From Prosthecobacter fusiformis (lineage in GTDB: Bacteria; Verrucomicrobiota; Verrucomicrobiia; Verrucomicrobiales; Verrucomicrobiaceae): DNA of 64,000 nucleotides. The notes below the pieces were generated by a model. The model was not told the origin of the DNA. It did no database searches and saw only the letters and a program-made list of their open reading frames with translations. Positions 33,689 through 43,840 of this stretch are shown in pieces (the first letter of the stretch is position 1; the number at the start of each line of letters is the position of its first letter). The stretch is taken from positions 124,001 to 188,000 of the forward strand of contig NZ_SOCA01000009.1 of assembly GCF_004364345.1 (NCBI RefSeq). Direction: 5' to 3'. Position numbers and translations under genes: made by a program.

Positions 33689-33980
33689 GAGGTGAGAAAT
33701 GCGCGTGCCGCCATACCGCGTGCTTCTTCAGCCCGGTGGCCCATGTCGGTCCCATGAGCGGTTAGAGAAGCAAATGCAAATCATCATTTGTTAGGGGGTG
33801 GCTCAGCCGTACGAGCGCCACATCTGTCTCTTCACCCTCCCTGTGCTTCATGGGCATGCAGTTCAATATCCATGCAGAGGCGACTACAGGCCAGCACAAC
33901 CCTGCCCTGATGACAGCCACAATTTCTTCACCGCTCCGTCCAACATGTCCATTACCAAGCCAGCCCATCCCGAGACTTTC

Positions 33981-35162
33981 ATGCGGGAACTTATAAACAA
34001 GCCGTTGATGAGACCCCGTACTCTGGCTCCGCTGCTGCTGCCCACGATTTCCCTGGGTGCGGCTGAACATCTGCGCTTTGACTCCAGCTATCAGACCTAT
34101 GAGGAGGCCAATGGCCGCATAGCCGTGGAGTCCTGGTATTACCGTGGTGAAATGAATCTCACGGATGAAACCCTGTTTAAATTCCAGCTCTTGAGAGATG
34201 CCATTAGTGGCGCATCGCCGACGGGGGCACTGCCGGGGGGCACCCAGCCATTTCTTTCGGACGTGGAGGATGTGCGTAATGGGATCCTGGGTGCATTGTC
34301 GCATCAGTTTGGAGACCATCGGGTGGAGGTGGAGTTTTCCCGCAGCAAGGAACATGACTACCTTTCGTATGGGCTGTCTCTGAGTGACCGCTGGGAGTTA
34401 AACCAGAAGAATACGACGCTGTCTATGGGGTTGAATTACCTGGACGATTCCATTGTGGTGCTGGGGATTGAGGATCAGTCAAAAAAGAGTTATGACCTTT
34501 TCTTTGGGGTGACCCAGCTGCTGGACAAAAACACGGTGCTGGCTGCGAACCTGACGGTGGGATACAGCGAAGGATATCTGAATGATCCGTATAAGGCCAT
34601 CCAGCGCACAGACATTGTCTCTGTTTCCGATGGAATGGGAGGGATGATTGATTTCCCGACGACAAACCTGTATCGGGAAAATCGCCCGGACAGCAGGCTG
34701 CGAGGGGTGTTGCAATTGCAAGGAACGAGGTTTTTTGACAAGTTTCAAGCCGCGTTGGACGCGACGGTGAGGCTGTCCACCGATGATTATGGTGTGTTTT
34801 CCCAGAGTCTTCAGGTGGAATGGAGGCAAGCGCTTGGGAGCAGGCTGGAGCTGACGCCGTTTTTCCGTTACTACAGGCAGAACGCGGCCGATTTTTTCCA
34901 CAATACCCTGGATGATGTGTCTGTGGCAGACCCTGCGGAATATCCCAGCGGAAGGGGGCCACACTATTCGGCGGATTATCGCCTTTCCTCCATGAGCTCT
35001 CTGAGCCTTGGGCTGAAGGCCCGCTGGCGTGTGAGTGATAACATCTCCCTGTCTGCCGCCTATGAGCTTTATGACATGAGCGGCACAGGATCACAGCAGG
35101 CACCTGCTCAGGCTTATCCGACGGCGAGCATATGGACCTTTGGCGTGACCATCGAATTTTAA
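33981..35162 (+). CDS. DUF3570 outer-membrane beta-barrel protein
   Basis: The protein has a signal peptide (RTLAPLLLPTISLGAA) and long stretches of alternating hydrophobic beta strands ending in an aromatic residue (WTFGVTIEF), as outer-membrane barrels do. It begins LRFDSSYQTYEEANGRIAVESWYYRGEMNLTDETLFKFQLLRDAISGASPTG, a typical DUF3570 N-terminus whose DAISGAS (Asp73-Ser79 from this start) resembles ApbE flavinylation sites. Its stop lies three bases before apbE. Start choice is uncertain (33945 or 34008 are alternatives). A conduit or anchor for the redox operon is inferred. Confidence 0.8.
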   Translation: MRELINKPLMRPRTLAPLLLPTISLGAAEHLRFDSSYQTYEEANGRIAVESWYYRGEMNLTDETLFKFQLLRDAISGASPTGALPGGTQPFLSDVEDVRNGILGALSHQFGDHRVEVEFSRSKEHDYLSYGLSLSDRWELNQKNTTLSMGLNYLDDSIVVLGIEDQSKKSYDLFFGVTQLLDKNTVLAANLTVGYSEGYLNDPYKAIQRTDIVSVSDGMGGMIDFPTTNLYRENRPDSRLRGVLQLQGTRFFDKFQAALDATVRLSTDDYGVFSQSLQVEWRQALGSRLELTPFFRYYRQNAADFFHNTLDDVSVADPAEYPSGRGPHYSADYRLSSMSSLSLGLKARWRVSDNISLSAAYELYDMSGTGSQQAPAQAYPTASIWTFGVTIEF

Positions 35163-35165
35163 ACC

Positions 35166-36143
35166 ATGTCCGCTCACCAACAAAACCAACCGATGCGGAT
35201 CACGCCGGACAGCCGTGGAGTGCGGAGTATTCCTTTCCATGCTTTGGGGGCACCCTGCGGTGTCCAGTTTCGATGCGATGACGATAAAAGGTCATTGCAA
35301 TTTGTGGCGGATGCCTTGGGCTGGCTGGGTCATTTTGAAGCGAAGTTTTCACGCTTTCGTGCTGATTCCATGGTCACCCGAATCAACGAGGCAGCAGGGA
35401 AACAATGGGTGGAAGTGGACCCGGAGATGGAGCAGATGCTGGACATCGGAGATGCGATGCACCGCTTGACTGCGGGTTTGCTGGACCCTGCCATGCTGCC
35501 CCTGCTGCGAGTGTGGGATTGGAAAAAAGTGCATGCGGCACTGCCTGATGAGGAGACCATCCGGGAGGCGCTGGACCTGTGTAACTGGAGCGAGGTGGAA
35601 AGGAGTCCAGGAAAGATCCGGCTGCCAAGAAAGGGCATGGGCCTGGATTTTGGCGGCTTTGGCAAAGAGCATGCGGTGGACCAGATCGCCAGTATAGCGC
35701 GGCAGCATGGGATTGAGGATCTGCTGGTGGATCTGGGGCGTGATATCTTTGCGATGGGCGGGAACGGGCTGCATCCGTTTTGGCATGTGGGCATCCAGGA
35801 CGGCATCCAGACGGAGCGTTGCATTGGTGGTCTGGCGGTCTCCAACTATGCCGTATGTGCCTCAGGCGACTATGCGCGGAGGTTTGAACATAAGGGGGTG
35901 CGCTATGGGCACATCCTGGACCGCCGGACCGGCTGGCCTGTGTGCCATGGCCTGAGGGCGGTGACCGTCCTGGCACCGACCTGCCTTGTGGCCGGGATCT
36001 ATTCCACCTGTGTGTTTGTCCTGGGCAGGCGGGAGGGGATGCAATTCGTGCAGAACGCTCCGGGAGTGGAGGCCTGCCTACAGGATGAACAAGGGATTTC
36101 AGGGACAGAGCATTTTAGCAAACACCAAGTCAAAGCGGCTTAA
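35166..36143 (+). CDS. apbE: ApbE-family FAD:protein FMN transferase
   Basis: ApbE transfers FMN from FAD to Thr or Ser of target proteins. The 325-residue protein has the family blocks FRADSMVTRIN, LDPAMLPLLRVW, GLDFGGFGKEHAVD, LLVDLGRDIFAMGG, GDYARRFEHKGVRYGHILDRRTGWPV, and the Mg-binding TCLVAGIYSTCVFVLG. No signal peptide or lipobox is visible, unlike most envelope ApbE proteins, and no upstream in-frame start adds one. The gene sits between DUF3570 and TlpA genes in one tight operon, so its targets are probably encoded nearby. Confidence 0.92.
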   Translation: MSAHQQNQPMRITPDSRGVRSIPFHALGAPCGVQFRCDDDKRSLQFVADALGWLGHFEAKFSRFRADSMVTRINEAAGKQWVEVDPEMEQMLDIGDAMHRLTAGLLDPAMLPLLRVWDWKKVHAALPDEETIREALDLCNWSEVERSPGKIRLPRKGMGLDFGGFGKEHAVDQIASIARQHGIEDLLVDLGRDIFAMGGNGLHPFWHVGIQDGIQTERCIGGLAVSNYAVCASGDYARRFEHKGVRYGHILDRRTGWPVCHGLRAVTVLAPTCLVAGIYSTCVFVLGRREGMQFVQNAPGVEACLQDEQGISGTEHFSKHQVKAA

Positions 36144-36164: not shown

Positions 36165-36653
36165 ATGAAATACATCATCAGTCTTGTCATTACCGTCTGC
36201 TTCAGCCTAACCATGATTGTCGCGGGGGAACCTGCGGTCGGATCCGCTCTGCCGGATCTTGGCAGTCTGCTGCCTGGATCCGCCCTGCCAAAAACGGCGG
36301 GTAAAGTGGTCTTAGTGGACTTTTGGGCATCCTGGTGCGCGCCTTGCAAGGCATCCTTTGCCACGATGTCGCGCTTGCATCAAAAGTATGCGGCTCAGGG
36401 CTTGGTGATCATTGGCATCGGGGTGGATGAGGAGAAGGAAAAGTTCCTGTCATTTGCAGCCAAACAGCAACCCGGTTTCACCCTGGTGCATGATGCCGGA
36501 CAGGCAGCGGCCGGTTTTTTTAATCCGCCGACGATGCCAACGAGCTATCTCGTCGATCGCAGCGGTAAGATCCGGCACATTCACAAGGGATTTAAAGGTG
36601 CGAAGACCGAGGCCGAATACACGGCGGAGATTGAGGAACTGCTGAGCAAATAA
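36165..36653 (+). CDS. TlpA-like periplasmic thioredoxin
   Basis: The 162-residue protein has a signal peptide (IISLVITVCFSLTMIVAG) and a thioredoxin fold with CAPC active site (WASWCAPCKAS, Cys58 and Cys61), a cis-Pro loop (PTMPTSYLVD) and length typical of TlpA/ResA. It would reduce disulfides in the periplasm, possibly keeping cysteines of the DUF4266 lipoprotein or another partner reduced. It lies 21 bases after apbE and 17 bases before the DUF4266 gene. Confidence 0.9.
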   Translation: MKYIISLVITVCFSLTMIVAGEPAVGSALPDLGSLLPGSALPKTAGKVVLVDFWASWCAPCKASFATMSRLHQKYAAQGLVIIGIGVDEEKEKFLSFAAKQQPGFTLVHDAGQAAAGFFNPPTMPTSYLVDRSGKIRHIHKGFKGAKTEAEYTAEIEELLSK

Positions 36654-36670
36654 CTCTACGACCAACCGAG

Positions 36671-36898
36671 ATGAAACCTTTGATGCTCCTTCTGGCTTTT
36701 GCCATGACCGCACTCTTGAGCAGTTGCTCAGAAAATCTTGTTAGGGTGAAGCCTTTTGAGAGGGGAAACCTGGCGAATCCTTTGATGAGCACGGACCGTG
36801 ATTCCCTTCTCCTGGCGATGACCATGCATGCCTACTTTTCACGCGAGGCGAGTTTTGGTGGCGGCGGAGTGGGAGGCGGAGGCTGTGGCTGCAACTAA
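36671..36898 (+). CDS. DUF4266 lipoprotein with Gly-rich GCGCN C-terminus
   Basis: The 75-residue lipoprotein has a lipobox (ALLSSC, Cys19) and a short core (RVKPFERGNLANPLMS) with the family-typical SREASFGG and ends in GGGGCGCN. These are DUF4266 hallmarks. The terminal CxC could bind a metal or be a disulfide partner of the adjacent thioredoxin. No one has, to my knowledge, shown a function. It is the fourth gene of the operon. Confidence 0.85.
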   Translation: MKPLMLLLAFAMTALLSSCSENLVRVKPFERGNLANPLMSTDRDSLLLAMTMHAYFSREASFGGGGVGGGGCGCN

Positions 36899-36920: not shown

Positions 36921-39878
36921 ATGAACACCATGAAATGTTATTCACTCATTCAGAAACTCAAAAAATCTTTGTCGCGCGGTGGGTCGTTGCTCCTGCTTTT
37001 CCAGCGCACCCCGGTGGCGCAGGTGCTCATGCCGGAGGTAAATTTTCTGGCTTCGGCGGCGGCAATGGACACAGCGAAGATCGTCATTACCAGTGTGATC
37101 GGACTGGGAGCGTACGACAGTGTCGCTGGTGCAACTACGGTGAGCCAGGTGGCACCGGCAGCCGGTTCCACAACGGTGCCTGTGACATCGGGCACCAATC
37201 TGGGAAGTGTCTTCCAGATCATAGGAGGAGGTGGGCACACGCCTCAGTCCTGGTCGGTCTCCAGCGGCACATTGCCGAGCGGCCTGACGCTGACCAATGC
37301 GAAGGGGAAAACCACTACTCTGACAGGAACCACGACGCAGACGGGCAATTATCCAGTGACGATCAGGGCCTGGGAAAGCACCGGCTTCAAGGGAAGATCT
37401 GCGCAAGGAGCGTTTACGGTGCAGGTTTCCGCTCCTCCATCTGCAGCCATCGTTACCCAGCCGTCGGCGACCACAATCAATAGCGGGAGTGCGGCGACGC
37501 TGACCGTGACGGCTTCAGGAGGAATACCTCTGACATATCAGTGGTACCGGGGAAACAGCGGTGTCACCGACTTTCCTGTAGGGACGAATGCTGCCTCGTA
37601 TACGACGCCTGTTTTGACAGCGACGACCAGTTATTGGGTGAAAGTGACCAATACCGTCAATCCTACTGGTGCGAACTCTAGTACGGCCACTGTGACTGTC
37701 CGGCAGCCTGCGGTGATCACGAGTGATCCGGCTCCCGTTTCCATCAATAGCGGACAAAGCATCGTGCTGACTGTCACAGCTACCGGGGATGATCCGCTGA
37801 GCTATCAATGGTATGAAGGAGCCAGCGGGGTGATAACAACGCCTGTGGGAGAAAATTCGGCTTCATTCACCACGCCGGTGCTGATCTACACGACGAGCTA
37901 CTGGGTGAAGGTGAGCAATATCGCGAATCCTACTGGAATGAATTCTACGGAGGCCACAGTAACGGTCGTGCCACCGGCCATGCCTGTTATATTTACTCCT
38001 TCTCAGTTGGCTACCGGCAGGACTGGGATCTCGTACCGTGTGGCACTGGGGGCAGTGGGGGGGACGGGACCCTATGCTTGGTCACTCAGCAGTGGTACGC
38101 TGCCTGAGGGTCTAGAGCTGGACAGCACAGGGGTCATTTCCGGGACGCCGACGGTGGTGGGGACAAGTGCATTCACGGTGGAGGTGACGGACTTCAATGG
38201 GGATAAGGATACAGAAGCCTACAGTGTGACAATGAGTGACCTAGCCATCTCGACGACCATGTTGCCTACGGCTGTGAAGGGTGTGGCGTATTCTTATCCT
38301 CTGTCAGGTTATGGCGGCATGCCTGCATATTCATGGAAAGTGATTGGAGGCAGTCTGCCAGGGGGGATGAGCTTTTCAGATACGGGAATGCTTTCCGGAG
38401 TTCCTGCGACTGTTGGGAATGCGCCTCTGACGGTTCGTCTCACGGATGGTAGCGGTTTTTCTGTCACCCAGCAGCTGACAGTGCCCGTTTCGGCTACTTT
38501 TTTGGTACCTGTCATTCAGCCGTTCAGCTTTGAGCCAGTTACTATTGGGACCGATTTTAGCTATACGGTTTCGGCATTAAATTATCCGAAGACTTTTGTT
38601 ATGACCGGCCTCCCGAAAGGGTTGAAATTTGTGGCAGCGACGGGAGTGATTAGCGGTCTGCCAGACGTGTCAGGGGTTTTTAATGTGCAGATTCGTGCTA
38701 GCAACACCGGGGGAACGAGCAGCACAGTGACAGTGCCTTTGACTGTGAATGCGCTGAAGGATAACTTGGTCGGTAGCTTTGGTGGATTGGTGGCGCGCGA
38801 TCCTGTGAACCGGGGCCTGGGGGGCGTCTTGACCGTCACGACGACCTCGATTGGTAGTTATACGGTCAAGCTAGTTGGAGCACTGGGTATCAAGGCAGCC
38901 TCCACGAGTTATTCAGCCAAGGGCCGGTTGGTAGCTGCTGCCCCGCAGTTGAAAGTGCCCTTAGGAGGATATGAGTTGGCTTTAACCATCGATCCCGATA
39001 CCGGGCTGATGGCAGGCACGCTTGGCAGTGTGAAAGTTAGCGGCTGGCGCTCTGCTTGGAATGCGAGGACCCATCCTGCGGATACACTGCTGGGCTATTA
39101 TAGTCTGGCGTTGGACCTGAAGGATGCTTGGGATGTGGGTGTGGATACGGTTCCTCAAGGCAGCGGCTTTGCCACATTCACCGTCAGTTCTGCGGGAAGT
39201 CTGAAAGTGGTTGGGAAGACTTCAGATGGCCAGACGATCACAGGTGCCAGTTTCCTGGGATCTAAAGGAGAGTTTTGGATCTATACAGCTTTGTACAAAA
39301 ATTTAGGCAGCATTCAGGGGGAGCTGGCCGTGCATGAGGATGAGGGGGGAATCGCTGCCTTCAATACTATCCGGGGAACTGTGTCCTGGTTTAAACCGGG
39401 AACGGTGACGCTGACCTATCCTGCGACCTTTGGACCGGTCAATTTAAAGGCAGAAGGGGGTTATCTGGCACTAGCGAGCAAAGCAAATATCCTGGGGTTG
39501 CCGGATGCGGGAAGCGTGCGACTGAGCTTCACGGATGGCGGGCTGGCAGCCTCGGACAAGGATCCGGACATGAGCTTCACCTATACTGCGGATCACAAAA
39601 CCGTATTGTTAACTGATGCGGTGAATAATCCTGGAAAGGTGACTCTCAAAATCAATGCTGCTACGGGAGCCGTGCTGGGCAACTTTACCCTGGTGGAAGC
39701 CACACCACCTCTGACGCGGGCAAAAGTGCCTTTTGTAGGGCAGGTGGTGAGAATGAGTGATGGCGGTGTGAAGGCTGCAGGTTACTTCCTACTGCATCAG
39801 ATTCCGGTCTCAGGCCAGACGGCGGCGAAGGCACCCGTCCTTTCGGGTGGTTTCAAACTTCAGCAGCCTGTTCCTTAA
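36921..39878 (+). CDS. Large Ig-like repeat protein with candidate N-terminal flavinylation motif
   Basis: From ATG 36921 the protein has 985 residues. The N-terminus (LLLLFQRTPVAQVL, about 23-36) is hydrophobic but not a classical cleavable signal. It precedes LGAYDSVAGATTVSQV (Asp66 to Thr72), which resembles the ApbE FMN-attachment consensus D-x-x-[ST]-G-A-T except that Ala replaces the Ser/Thr. Two tandem Ig-like repeats (SYWVKVTN at each end) at about 170-350 and several putative-Ig/He_PIG domains (GTLPEGLELDSTGVISGTP type) follow; the C-terminal ~370 residues are a beta-rich region seen in large Verrucomicrobiota surface proteins. It is the last gene of the operon, 22 bases after DUF4266. 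Upstream start codons are possible; 36930 is an alternative. Confidence 0.8.
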   Translation: MNTMKCYSLIQKLKKSLSRGGSLLLLFQRTPVAQVLMPEVNFLASAAAMDTAKIVITSVIGLGAYDSVAGATTVSQVAPAAGSTTVPVTSGTNLGSVFQIIGGGGHTPQSWSVSSGTLPSGLTLTNAKGKTTTLTGTTTQTGNYPVTIRAWESTGFKGRSAQGAFTVQVSAPPSAAIVTQPSATTINSGSAATLTVTASGGIPLTYQWYRGNSGVTDFPVGTNAASYTTPVLTATTSYWVKVTNTVNPTGANSSTATVTVRQPAVITSDPAPVSINSGQSIVLTVTATGDDPLSYQWYEGASGVITTPVGENSASFTTPVLIYTTSYWVKVSNIANPTGMNSTEATVTVVPPAMPVIFTPSQLATGRTGISYRVALGAVGGTGPYAWSLSSGTLPEGLELDSTGVISGTPTVVGTSAFTVEVTDFNGDKDTEAYSVTMSDLAISTTMLPTAVKGVAYSYPLSGYGGMPAYSWKVIGGSLPGGMSFSDTGMLSGVPATVGNAPLTVRLTDGSGFSVTQQLTVPVSATFLVPVIQPFSFEPVTIGTDFSYTVSALNYPKTFVMTGLPKGLKFVAATGVISGLPDVSGVFNVQIRASNTGGTSSTVTVPLTVNALKDNLVGSFGGLVARDPVNRGLGGVLTVTTTSIGSYTVKLVGALGIKAASTSYSAKGRLVAAAPQLKVPLGGYELALTIDPDTGLMAGTLGSVKVSGWRSAWNARTHPADTLLGYYSLALDLKDAWDVGVDTVPQGSGFATFTVSSAGSLKVVGKTSDGQTITGASFLGSKGEFWIYTALYKNLGSIQGELAVHEDEGGIAAFNTIRGTVSWFKPGTVTLTYPATFGPVNLKAEGGYLALASKANILGLPDAGSVRLSFTDGGLAASDKDPDMSFTYTADHKTVLLTDAVNNPGKVTLKINAATGAVLGNFTLVEATPPLTRAKVPFVGQVVRMSDGGVKAAGYFLLHQIPVSGQTAAKAPVLSGGFKLQQPVP

Positions 39879-39932: not shown

Positions 39933-40056
39933 GCCCCGAATTAAGGCACGTGCTGTGCTGTAAAGAAGGGTGGCGGGAGGGGGTTCTCGCCCCCAGGGAG
40001 CGGCGGTGCAATAAACGGGCGGACTGGATTTGAAGCTGAATTTTTCTGTTATTTCT

Positions 40057-40629
40057 ATGAACTCGTATTTATTACTTTTAATTAACCTTTTGTTAGGTGC
40101 CACCCTGGTGCAGGCGGATCAAAAAGTGCTGTGGTCAGGAACCGGGGACATAACTTTTTCCGGTACTTCCACCCTTCATGACTGGGCGGGCAAAGTGGCG
40201 GCCAGCCCTTTTTCGGCCACAGTGGTTTATGACGAATCTGGTCGGCCCCAAAGGATCCAGGCGAAGGTTTCAGTGGAAGCTGGCAAGATGGACACGGCCG
40301 AGCCAAAACGGGATGAAAACATGAAGCAGGCACTGAATGTCCCGATTTACCCGCTGATCCAGGCCAGCCTGGATGCTCCGGCAGAGAAAATTGCTGCGGA
40401 TGGCAAAACGCCCACCCGTCTGCCGATGACCCTGATGCTACTAGGGAAGTCCCACAAAATCGTAGCGGAGATCAGTGATTGGAAACTGTCTGCCAAGAAA
40501 GCGACCTTTGATCTGGACTTCGACGTATCCATGAAGGCTAGCGGGATCAGTGTCCCGCCGGTGCTGATATTCATCCGCGTAGGCGATGCCGTGAAGGTGC
40601 ATGCCTCTGTGACCCTCACACAAAACTGA
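40057..40629 (+). CDS. YceI-family exported lipid-binding protein
   Basis: The product (190 residues from ATG 40057) has a signal peptide (MNSYLLLLINLLLGATLVQA) and the YceI lipocalin-like pattern: FSGTSTLHDWAGKVAASPF, the AGKMDTAEPKRDENMKQALNV segment, then LMLLGKSHKIVAEISDW. YceI proteins bind long-chain isoprenoid or amphiphilic lipids in the periplasm. It ends five bases before the polyketide synthase gene, so it may carry the phenolic lipid made by the following enzymes. A TTG at 40030 is a less likely start. Confidence 0.82.
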   Translation: MNSYLLLLINLLLGATLVQADQKVLWSGTGDITFSGTSTLHDWAGKVAASPFSATVVYDESGRPQRIQAKVSVEAGKMDTAEPKRDENMKQALNVPIYPLIQASLDAPAEKIAADGKTPTRLPMTLMLLGKSHKIVAEISDWKLSAKKATFDLDFDVSMKASGISVPPVLIFIRVGDAVKVHASVTLTQN

Positions 40630-40634
40630 TCCCC

Positions 40635-41783
40635 ATGTCTTCTTACATTCATCACATCGCCACGGCCACGCCACCCTATGCCTACAGCCAAGCTTATACG
40701 CGTGACCGGCTCAAGGAATGGACGCAGAATCCGAAGACGAAGCGACTGATCCAGGCGATCTATAACCGGAGTGGCATTGAGACGCGGCATAGTGTGACGG
40801 GTGACTTCATCGCCGGGGCGGATGCAACGTTATTCAGGTCTGATGCGGAGGGCAGGCTTATTCCTCCAGGCACTGCGGAGCGAAACCGTGTTTATGCACA
40901 CAGTGCGCGTGAGCTTTCGGTGGAGGTGGCGAAACGCGCGATTGCGGATGCGCCGGGTTTTGCCAAAGAAGACATTACCCACATCATTTATACATCCTGC
41001 ACGGGTTTTGCTAATCCTGGACCGGACTACCATGTCATCCGTGAGCTGGGTTTGAGAGGGAATATTCAGCGTTACACGCTCGGGTTCATGGGCTGTTATG
41101 CGGCGTTTCCGGCATTGAGGATGGCGGCGCAGTTTTGTGAAGCGGATGCGGATGCTGTGGTGCTGGTGATCTGCCTGGAACTGTGCACGCTGCACATGCA
41201 GGTCAATGACCAGCCGGACAGCATCCTGGCCAATTCTCTTTTTGCGGATGGTGCGGCGGCGGCCATTGTGAGCGCTCGGGAGCCAACGGTGAAGAAACCG
41301 GCGTATCGTCTGCGCGGTTTTGAATCAGCACTGTTGCCGTCGAGCGAGGCGGACATGGCCTGGGAGATCGGCAATGAAGGCTTTAATATTGTGCTCTCCA
41401 GCTATGTGCCGGACATCATCGGCCAGAATATCCGTCAGCTTCTGAAGGGTATCCTGACACGCAAGGGGACCTCCCCGGAGGAGATGAACGAGTGGGCGGT
41501 ACATCCGGGCGGCAGGTCCATTTTAGACAAGGTGCAGGAAAGCCTGGCGCTGCCAGCGGATACGCTGGAGGCTTCCAGAACGATTTTGAGAGACTATGGG
41601 AACATGAGCAGTGCGACCATTCTGTTTGTGTTGAAGGAGATGCTGGACACGGCGGATACGGATCATGCGAATCTATGTGCCATGGCCTTTGGGCCTGGTC
41701 TCACGGTGGAAACGGCGCTGCTGGAGCGGCTGGGCAGTACGGCGATGAGCACGCATGCTTTGGCTGAAAACTTGAAGGTCTGA
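40635..41783 (+). CDS. Type III polyketide synthase (phenolic lipid/alkylresorcinol type)
   Basis: The 382-residue chalcone-synthase-family enzyme has the Cys-His-Asn triad: Cys154 in GFMGCYAAFPAL, His290 in AVHPGG and Asn323 in YGNMSSATI. It condenses a fatty-acyl or other starter with malonyl-CoA units and cyclises the chain; the context with a methyltransferase/monooxygenase suggests alkylresorcinol or alkylpyrone lipids. No acyl-carrier gene is next to it. Starter preference cannot be read from the sequence. Confidence 0.92.
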   Translation: MSSYIHHIATATPPYAYSQAYTRDRLKEWTQNPKTKRLIQAIYNRSGIETRHSVTGDFIAGADATLFRSDAEGRLIPPGTAERNRVYAHSARELSVEVAKRAIADAPGFAKEDITHIIYTSCTGFANPGPDYHVIRELGLRGNIQRYTLGFMGCYAAFPALRMAAQFCEADADAVVLVICLELCTLHMQVNDQPDSILANSLFADGAAAAIVSAREPTVKKPAYRLRGFESALLPSSEADMAWEIGNEGFNIVLSSYVPDIIGQNIRQLLKGILTRKGTSPEEMNEWAVHPGGRSILDKVQESLALPADTLEASRTILRDYGNMSSATILFVLKEMLDTADTDHANLCAMAFGPGLTVETALLERLGSTAMSTHALAENLKV

Positions 41784-41785
41784 CC

Positions 41786-43840
41786 ATGGCTTCAACGACA
41801 ATGATGTACACGCCAGCTCAGCGCTGGGTGGCACTGGCTTATGGGCTGGTGAGCCATACGCTTTTTTTAGCGGCAGTGGGTGTGATGTTTGTCAGCCTTT
41901 ATGAGGGACTGCATCTGAGCCTGCTGCATCTGCATGGCTGGGCGGCGGCGGTAGGGGACGTCATTTTGGTCCTGCAGTTTGGGCTTGGGCATTCGCTGCT
42001 GCTTTCCGACCAGGGCCGCCGATGGCTAGCGAGAATGGCTCCGCTGGGACTTGGGCGGGAGCTTTCGACAACGGTTTTTGCGGGGTTGGCCTCCTTGCAG
42101 TTGCTGATTACTTTTTTGTTATGGTCATCTTCGAAGGTGTTGTGGGCGGCGCCTGAGGGGTGGGTTAAAGGTGGGTTAAGCGTGCTTTACGGTATTTCTT
42201 GGCTGCTACTGGCGAAGTCCATGAGTGATGCGGGACTGGATGTGCAGGTGGGCAGCATTGGCTGGCATTCCGTGTGGCGGGGGCATGCGCCCGTATTCCG
42301 GCCGTTTGCACGCACGGGCCTGTTCAGATACAGCCGTCAGCCGATTTATTCCTCTTTCACGCTGATCCTCTGGACGGCCCCGGTGTGGACGCCGGATCAT
42401 CTGCTTATCGCAATGCTGTGGACGTTGTACTGTGTGGGAGCACCCGTGTGGAAGGAGAAACGCTATCTGCGCTTTTATGGTCAGGCGTATGCTCGCTACC
42501 AGGCCGTGGTCCCGTATTGGTTCCCAGGCCGCAAGGGCCGCGATATGAGTTTTCCGACTGAGCCTTCTATTCCTGCGGTTCACGATGCCGAGGTCATTGT
42601 GATCGGTGGTGGTCCCGTGGGTATGGCCTTAGCCTGCTTGCTAGGAGGTCGTGGGGTGCGCGTGCTGGTGGTGGAAAAACGTGGAGCACTGCCTTCACAT
42701 TCGCAGGCCATCGGCATCACACCGCCGACTTTGGCCATCTTGTCCGAGCTAGGGCTGGATGAAGCGTTTATAGGGCAGGGCCTGCCTATTCATGACTGCC
42801 ATGTACACGGTGAAAGCGGGGCTTTGGGCATTGCTTCATTCCGGCAGATCCCGGGGCAGTATCCATTCATCCTTTCGCTGCCGCAGCAGATCAGCATGCG
42901 GCTGCTGGCGGATAAGCTGGCCCTGTATCCATCGGTTAAAATGCTGCGTGGGGTGGAAGTGGTTTCGGTAGAGCAGACCGGAGATGCCGTGACTGTGGGA
43001 CTGAAGGATGAAGCAGGCGTGATCACTATCCGCAGCGCGGCTTATGCGGTAGGATGCGACGGGCACCGGAGCCGGGTGCGGGATCTGCTGCGGATGCGTT
43101 CCCGACGGTATGACTACGGGCATCATTTCGTGATGGGTGATTTCCAGGACCGAACGGCGCTGGGAGGGGAAGCGCATCTTTTTTTTACCGCACAGGGGGC
43201 CGTGGAGAGCTTTCCTCTGCCGGGAGGATTGCGGCGGTGGATCGTGCAGACAAAACAGCCGGAGGCGGAGCCACCTGCGGGTTTTATCAGTGAGGTCGTC
43301 CGTATGCGTTCAGGACACATCATTGCGCCGGAGGATCAGGTGAACCAGAGCGCCTTTTCCCCCTGGCGGCTGGACTGTGAGCAGCTCTATGATGGACGTG
43401 TTATTTTATGTGGTGATGCGGCGCATGTGATGAGCCCCATCGGTGGTCAGGGAATGAACACGGGGTTTGCCGATGCGGAGTTTGCGGCGTTGATGCTGCA
43501 TGCCATTCTGCGGCAGGGCCAGCAGGCGGGTCCCTGGTTGGCGGAGTATGACCGCTGCCGACGCAAGGCATCCAACACTGCGGCTACGCGGGCCGCGCTG
43601 GGCATGGGCCTGGGTACATGGCGTGGCAAAGGGATGTCGTGGCTGCGGGACAGGCTGCTGCGGCACCTGATTTTACGCGGGCCGATGGCGGGCATTGTGG
43701 GTCCGTGGTTTGCGATGATGACGATCCCTTTCAACCGCGCGGCGAAGTCCCGTTTCGTCGCGACGTACATGACCGGTAATTGCACAGAAAAAAGCCAGCC
43801 TGAATCCAGGCTGGCTTTTCAAGAGGAGTCTCAAGGCTGA
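41786..43840 (+). CDS. Fusion of ICMT-like membrane methyltransferase and FAD-dependent monooxygenase
   Basis: The first ~250 residues have five or six transmembrane segments and the isoprenylcysteine-carboxylmethyltransferase-like signature (GLFRYSRQPIYSSF and YGQAYARYQAVVPYWFPG). Residues ~268-684 are a UbiH/PHBH-type FAD monooxygenase with VIVIGGGPVGMALA (Gly-rich loop 274-279), the DG motif (GCDGHRSRVRDLL) and CGDAAHVMSPIGGQGMNTG. Such partners act separately as SrsB and SrsC in the Streptomyces srs pathway, methylating and hydroxylating alkylresorcinols. An in-frame ATG at 42545 marks the junction. The gene starts two bases after the synthase stop. Confidence 0.88.
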   Translation: MASTTMMYTPAQRWVALAYGLVSHTLFLAAVGVMFVSLYEGLHLSLLHLHGWAAAVGDVILVLQFGLGHSLLLSDQGRRWLARMAPLGLGRELSTTVFAGLASLQLLITFLLWSSSKVLWAAPEGWVKGGLSVLYGISWLLLAKSMSDAGLDVQVGSIGWHSVWRGHAPVFRPFARTGLFRYSRQPIYSSFTLILWTAPVWTPDHLLIAMLWTLYCVGAPVWKEKRYLRFYGQAYARYQAVVPYWFPGRKGRDMSFPTEPSIPAVHDAEVIVIGGGPVGMALACLLGGRGVRVLVVEKRGALPSHSQAIGITPPTLAILSELGLDEAFIGQGLPIHDCHVHGESGALGIASFRQIPGQYPFILSLPQQISMRLLADKLALYPSVKMLRGVEVVSVEQTGDAVTVGLKDEAGVITIRSAAYAVGCDGHRSRVRDLLRMRSRRYDYGHHFVMGDFQDRTALGGEAHLFFTAQGAVESFPLPGGLRRWIVQTKQPEAEPPAGFISEVVRMRSGHIIAPEDQVNQSAFSPWRLDCEQLYDGRVILCGDAAHVMSPIGGQGMNTGFADAEFAALMLHAILRQGQQAGPWLAEYDRCRRKASNTAATRAALGMGLGTWRGKGMSWLRDRLLRHLILRGPMAGIVGPWFAMMTIPFNRAAKSRFVATYMTGNCTEKSQPESRLAFQEESQG
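43790..43819. terminator. Bidirectional terminator overlapping the end of the fusion gene
   Basis: A perfect 13-bp stem (aaaagccagcctg / caggctggctttt) with a 4-base loop is flanked by a run of A on the left and T on the right. It ends 25 bases before aguA, for which it is a strong terminator on the minus strand. It lies inside the last 17 codons of the rightward gene. Confidence 0.85.

Follow-up and report, generated by a model that had tools for sequence, protein, structure and literature searches.

A candidate ApbE acceptor motif in the N-terminal segment of an Ig-like protein encoded beside a DUF3570 flavinylation cluster of Prosthecobacter fusiformis

In the window, i.e., the whole stretch of 64,000 nucleotides of P. 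fusiformis DNA analyzed here, the gene of a large Ig-like protein follows a DUF3570-type gene cluster that includes an FMN transferase, ApbE. Near its N-terminus the protein carries the sequence DSVAGAT, which resembles the acceptor site of ApbE substrates and whose Gly and Ala are present in all of the 113 aligned copies of the segment. Judging from sequence comparison, the Ig-like protein is fairly likely to be a second flavinylation target of this cluster, and its family is probably a new family of ApbE substrates with a relaxed motif, i.e., a family of candidate flavoproteins.

Motif and N-terminal Segment

The elements of the Ig-like protein are as follows.

36921..39878, + strand: Ig-like (He_PIG, Ig_7) protein of 985 aa, assigned by Pfam; the start may be 36930
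37002..37013, + strand: QRTP, second conserved N-terminal element (Q28 in 113/113, R29 in 106/113 and P31 in 112/113 copies)
37071..37115, + strand: hydrophobic stretch before the motif, residues 51–65, by Kyte-Doolittle; part of a low-confidence AlphaFold helix (38–65)
37116..37136, + strand: DSVAGAT, candidate ApbE acceptor motif, from ORF reading and alignments; the candidate FMN-bearing Thr is at 37134-37136

The motif lies where the earlier note had placed it, at residues 66–72 of the ORF starting from 36921, with the codons GAC AGT GTC GCT GGT GCA ACT. Since most homologues in the alignment begin level with the second ATG (36930), its true numbering may be 63–69. Its location directly after a hydrophobic N-terminal segment, also proposed in that note, was borne out, with the stretch being only moderately hydrophobic: the Kyte-Doolittle mean is 1.99 over residues 54–65, and the best 19-residue window reaches 1.53. 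An AlphaFold model predicts residues 66–72 as a coil between helix 38–65 and an Ig strand at 73–78, with pLDDT below 50 at 47–68, and a Foldseek search with the N-terminal model returned mostly Ig-like folds.

The window protein departs from the strict consensus D-x-x-[S/T]-G-A-[S/T] in that Ala stands before Gly. No NCBIfam match was obtained for its N-terminal segment, and a Pfam scan of 31 aligned members of the segment gave chance-level matches only (best E 0.046). PF04205 (FMN_bind), DUF3570 and DUF2271 domains were all absent from the Ig-like protein in a Pfam scan at E 0.01.

The Gene Cluster

The Ig-like gene comes after genes for DUF3570, ApbE, TlpA and DUF4266, in this order, and is followed by a further set of genes.

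33945..35162, + strand: DUF3570 protein, from a family in which an ApbE substrate has been demonstrated (PF12094, E 9.2e-72); the start is inferred
34197..34217, + strand: DAISGAS, DUF3570 acceptor-type motif, from ORF reading and alignment; coordinates calculated from those of the ORF
35166..36143, + strand: ApbE-type FMN transferase (PF02424, E 9.9e-68)
36165..36653, + strand: TlpA/thioredoxin-like protein with CAPC and, by eye, a signal peptide (Pfam AhpC-TSA/Redoxin)
36671..36898, + strand: DUF4266 small protein ending in CGCN, a CXC motif (PF14086, E 3e-19)
40030..40629, + strand: YceI-like protein, the next downstream gene, with an uncertain start (PF04264, E 1.3e-08, scanned from 40054)
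40635..41783, + strand: type III polyketide synthase (PF02797/PF00195)
41786..43840, + strand: protein in which an N-terminal membrane part precedes an FAD-binding monooxygenase domain (PF01494, E 8.8e-48, residues 268-601) at the C-terminus

The four genes from DUF3570 to DUF4266 correspond to a published flavinylation system composed of DsbD, DUF3570, DUF4266, thioredoxin and ApbE, for which the DUF3570 protein of Chlorobium luteolum was shown to receive flavin from its cognate ApbE at two [S/T]GA[S/T] motifs (PMC8238504). Because the DUF3570 protein with DAISGAS already supplies a substrate of the known type, the Ig-like protein is not needed to explain the presence of ApbE, a point that the earlier note does not raise. 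The proposal of the earlier note that the Ig-like protein is a new ApbE substrate is partly borne out: motif conservation and linkage to ApbE strengthen it, the Asp is variable, and the DUF3570 protein offers the enzyme a substrate of the known type. In one relative, the DUF3570 gene is split over two overlapping frames (L056:11269-12497), either by a frameshift or by an assembly error.

Downstream of the Ig-like gene, genes for YceI, type III polyketide synthase and FAD monooxygenase were found in 11/18 regions of the own family (the window, L056-L059, L062-L064 and L066-L068), and in none of 83 other, mostly shorter regions. Perhaps these genes form a dedicated pathway for a quinone, linked to the flavinylation cluster. 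The N-terminal membrane part of the monooxygenase protein had no Pfam match and appears methyltransferase-like by eye.

Conservation of the Segment

In the window's own family (f1), a single-protein search of 68 genomes found the N-terminal segment in 17 of them, giving 19 copies including the window, with matches to the Ig part alone left out. D66, V68, G70, A71 and T72 are identical in 19/19 of these copies, the invariant residues also including Q28 and R29, while residue 69 is Ala in 18 copies and Ser in one from the window's own genus, which reads DSVSGAT (L069). A profile of the segment matched 23/384 genomes of the class and 18/387 genomes of a phylum sample, one of the 18 being false and the two sets overlapping, and a broader profile found the segment in 114/200 genomes of family f16 and 23/195 of family f2. 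The first matches from f2 and f3 read DSVAGAT, DSVSGAT, DTVTGAT, DTVSGAS, DTVTGAT and DCVSGAT. The pattern D-x-(L/V)-A-G-A-T given in the earlier note for other Verrucomicrobiota holds in outline, and among the relatives there are the textbook forms DSVSGAT, DTVTGAT, DTVSGAS and DCVSGAT.

For a wider comparison, 113 distinct copies from 101 regions were aligned (median pairwise identity 0.34). Two L116 rows duplicating L113 were removed (115 to 113), as was G527/L124 with three stops in its match; L199 yielded no copy, and L111 (NSVAGAT) fell under the profile threshold and is outside the 113. In these copies, which were found with motif-containing profiles so that the conservation figures carry that caveat, G70 and A71 are both present in 113/113, and residue 72 is Thr in 105 and Ser in 8. 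A Thr/Ser exchange at residue 72 is expected of an ApbE acceptor and counts for flavinylation. Residue 69 is Ala in 94, Ser in 8, Thr in 6 and Val in 5, so that textbook cores with Ser or Thr (14/113) occur within the Ig family. Besides the motif, the Q, R and P of QRTP are near-fixed.

The Asp behaves differently: residue 66 is D in 62, H in 32, N in 14 and Q in 5 copies. By family, D66 is found in 19/19 copies of f1, 26/26 of f2, 1/1 of f3, 16/66 of f16 and 0/1 of f76; it is fixed in the 46/46 copies from the family and order of the window and lost in 50/66 copies of the distant f16, whose 40 regions are a non-random sample hand-picked among the matches listed. The check suggested beforehand, whether D, G, A and T are invariant, therefore came out well for G, A and T/S (113/113) but not for D (62/113). 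Chance resemblance without function might be suspected from a short motif in an Ala- and Gly-rich context, and is scarcely credible; invariance of G and A at such a low pairwise identity contradicts it, and this explanation was rejected. Two or three copies of the segment occur in one region in L066, L182, L188, L224, L226, L227, L232 and L237.

A divergent Ig relative directly follows DUF4266 in 4/20 DUF3570-only regions, all from genus g19 (L276:4923-5804, L277:9033-9914, L280:4739-5650 and L281:4850-5722), and the profile had missed all four. These relatives carry QRLP and HxLSGQ[S/T], keeping G and S/T with Gln in place of Ala71 (SGQS/SGQT), and profile comparison with the Ig segment gave a probability of 52% (E 1.4e-4). 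Among ORFs of more than 120 residues within 1.5 kb downstream, no equivalent was recognized in the nine regions L265-L273 from other own-family genera; nor was one recognized in L274, L275, L278, L279 and L282-L284, of which L274 and L282-L284 are close to the end of a contig.

A Signal Peptide as an Alternative

Large secreted proteins can have extended signal peptides, with a long conserved extension, a hydrophobic core and A-x-A. The segment may be read in the same manner, as a basic n-region, a QRTP extension and a hydrophobic core with cleavage after A-G-A; Thr72 would then be the first mature residue, and the link to ApbE would reflect operon neighborhood only. Judged by hydropathy and residue pattern, A-G-A at 69–71 fits cleavage by signal peptidase I, a small residue (A/S/T/V) occupies −3 in 113/113 copies, and the core is moderately hydrophobic. 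However, a signal peptidase site would leave −2 and +1 free, and these are the positions of the fixed Gly and the Thr/Ser. As a control, TlpA proteins from the same regions have G at −2 in 2/66 and T/S at +1 in 15/66, a comparison that is indicative only, with sites assigned in 66/76 proteins by a crude finder that plainly misplaces several of them. Furthermore, the g19 relatives have Gln at −1 in the A-G-A register, and the Ig family tracks DUF3570 across genomes (see below). The segment thus differs from extended signal peptides in its fixed Gly, in Thr/Ser at the supposed cleavage site and in its linkage to ApbE. A plain signal peptidase site as the whole story is weakened by the TlpA control, and this alternative is rather unlikely, though to be taken seriously; signal-peptide and flavinylation roles could coexist in one segment.

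Alanine Before the G-A-T Core

Ala in place of Ser or Thr is also found in other flavinylation proteins. In DUF3570 proteins of the same regions, Ala takes the S/T position in 21/73 readable sites (L116 and eight ORFs without a readable site left out), for example, DSIAGATP and DTIAGATP in f16. Among nine FMN_bind domains from 57 genomes of the class, the residue before GAT is S in four, T in two, G in two and A in one. In the mutagenesis of the motif covered by a review, flavinylation was lost on changing T to A, fell to approximately half with G to A or with A to V, and was little affected by Asp to Ala (PMC12052999). The substitutions given in the available motif description of the same review do not include Ala at the [S/T] position. 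The DUF3570 and FMN_bind variants and the mutagenesis agree with a required G-A-T core, and DSVAGAT itself may be used.

The DUF3570 site shows several other forms. DxIAGATP is common (L109, L111, L113, L115, L117, L119, L120, L123 and others), and SGSS, SGST, TGSS or TGST is also seen in f1 and f2. The FMN_bind domains L246, L250 and L253 have NIAGAT or NIGGAT instead of [S/T]GAT.

Linkage to ApbE and DUF3570

ApbE lies within 5 kb of 80/113 copies overall and of 19/19 own-family copies, the window included. The earlier note had proposed beforehand to ask whether the motif is kept in homologues neighboring ApbE, and it is: G, A and T/S are present in all of the 80 copies. The other 33 consist of 15 with a cluster gene but no ApbE within 5 kb, five at contig edges, and 13 in whose fetched DNA neither DUF3570, ApbE nor DUF4266 was found, the motif still being AGAT or TGAT. 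A genome-wide search for ApbE covered the own genome and 18 others, i.e., 16 with copies but no ApbE in the fetched region plus G767 and G814, whose copies were unfetched, with G356 and G793 (no ApbE in the fetched region) outside it. ApbE was present in 18/18 and in the own genome, so that no genome with the Ig family and without ApbE was found among them.

Co-occurrence of the Ig segment with DUF3570 was tabulated for three families, with tables of unequal sensitivity, as Ig presence was scored by the single-protein search in the own family and by profile in f16 and f2. Genomes with both, Ig only, DUF3570 only and neither number 110, 4, 3 and 83 in f16, 22, 1, 24 and 148 in f2, and 17, 0, 8 and 43 in the own family. 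The Ig-like protein therefore occurs nearly always with DUF3570, while DUF3570 needs no Ig-like protein.

QRTP and GAT may instead be a docking or sorting element for DUF3570, DUF4266 or a secretion factor, the likeness to the ApbE motif being convergent. QRTP, whose conservation score is at least equal to that of GAT, is no part of the ApbE motif as described in the available text of PMC12052999, and GAT is kept in the 13 copies that have no cluster gene close by. From docking, however, one would not expect the S/T alternatives seen at residues 69 and 72 in agreement with the ApbE consensus, and the DUF3570 proteins' own site shows a similar range of variants; this explanation is improbable.

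The ApbE of the Cluster

In an alignment with FMN transferases of solved structure (E 4.4e-32), the cluster ApbE retains both the SG-motif Ser and the HI-motif His. Where the DALAT motif has its Asp, Gly is found in every DUF3570-cluster ApbE compared, including that of the window. Ser241, His257 and Asp285 are conserved catalytic residues of Vibrio ApbE (PMC12052999), and Asp285 is presumably the Asp of DALAT. Seven other ApbEs have Asp in four (three of them own-genome paralogues), Ser in two and Gly in one, showing that the Asp is not universal. No signal peptide was recognized by eye in 36 cluster ApbE ORFs, one of them a duplicate. Cytosolic ApbEs exist (PMC12052999), and if the cluster ApbEs are cytosolic, FMN would be added before export. 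From sequence, the activity and the compartment of this Gly-type enzyme lacking a signal peptide are uncertain. As separate observations, the ApbE of a Vibrio DUF3570 cluster (L285) is also of the Gly type, and that of a Hymenobacter DUF3570 cluster (L286) has the Asp and, by eye, a signal peptide.

A Possible Flavinylated Ig-like Protein

In the preferred reading, flavinylation of the Ig-like protein, the N-terminus runs from a basic start through QRTP and a predicted hydrophobic helix to a short linker that ends in G-A-T and is followed by the first Ig strand. ApbE would move FMN from FAD onto Thr72, or onto the Ser that replaces it in some relatives. Once the protein is exported, its FMN would lie at the foot of the Ig stalk beside the membrane, and may relay electrons between the FMNs of DUF3570 on one side and thiol carriers (TlpA and the CXC of DUF4266) or a quinone on the other. 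Against flavinylation stand the Ala at the [S/T] position, the loss of D66 in f16, the 13 cluster-free copies, the signal-peptide look of the segment, the Gln of the g19 relatives, the Gly-type ApbE lacking a visible signal peptide and the low confidence of the model at 47–68. Taken jointly, the proposals would describe a large Verrucomicrobiota family of Ig stalks in which a covalent FMN lies where a membrane or signal helix meets the first Ig domain. A Gly-type ApbE without a signal peptide would attach it in the cell before export, and the stalks would serve an envelope flavin electron path that, in the window's genus, would often be linked to a dedicated quinone derived from a polyketide; such a picture is rather unlikely.

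The candidate shares features with known ApbE substrates. Like the DUF3570 protein (PF12094), it belongs to the same cluster, and both have acceptor cores of the [S/T/A]-G-[A/S]-[S/T] kind; unlike it, the Ig-like protein lacks a DUF3570 domain, and its motif is predicted to follow a hydrophobic helix and precede an Ig strand. The available account of the DUF3570 system in PMC8238504 does not mention the Ig-like protein. The GAT core is shared with FMN_bind proteins (PF04205), from which the Ig-like protein differs in having Ig-like domains and no PF04205 match. Flavodoxin_4 and FMN_red were found as ApbE substrates by co-localization with apbE and the motif, which in FMN_red sits in an added unstructured stretch (PMC11334425). 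The Ig candidate likewise rests on apbE co-localization and motif; these two, as described there, are relatives of flavin-binding proteins, whereas the Ig-like protein is without a known flavin-binding fold. No description of the Ig-like family was recognized in a literature search, and tables of PMC8238504, PMC11334425 and PMC12052999 might list one.

Much of the flavin-based electron transfer outside the cytosol is defined by the substrates of ApbE, an enzyme that in some genomes has no known substrate (PMC8238504). If the Ig-like protein is flavinylated, it would represent a class of Ig-like flavoproteins without a known flavin-binding fold, Ala would be accepted before G-A-T, and an N-terminal segment without a family model would gain a directly testable role.
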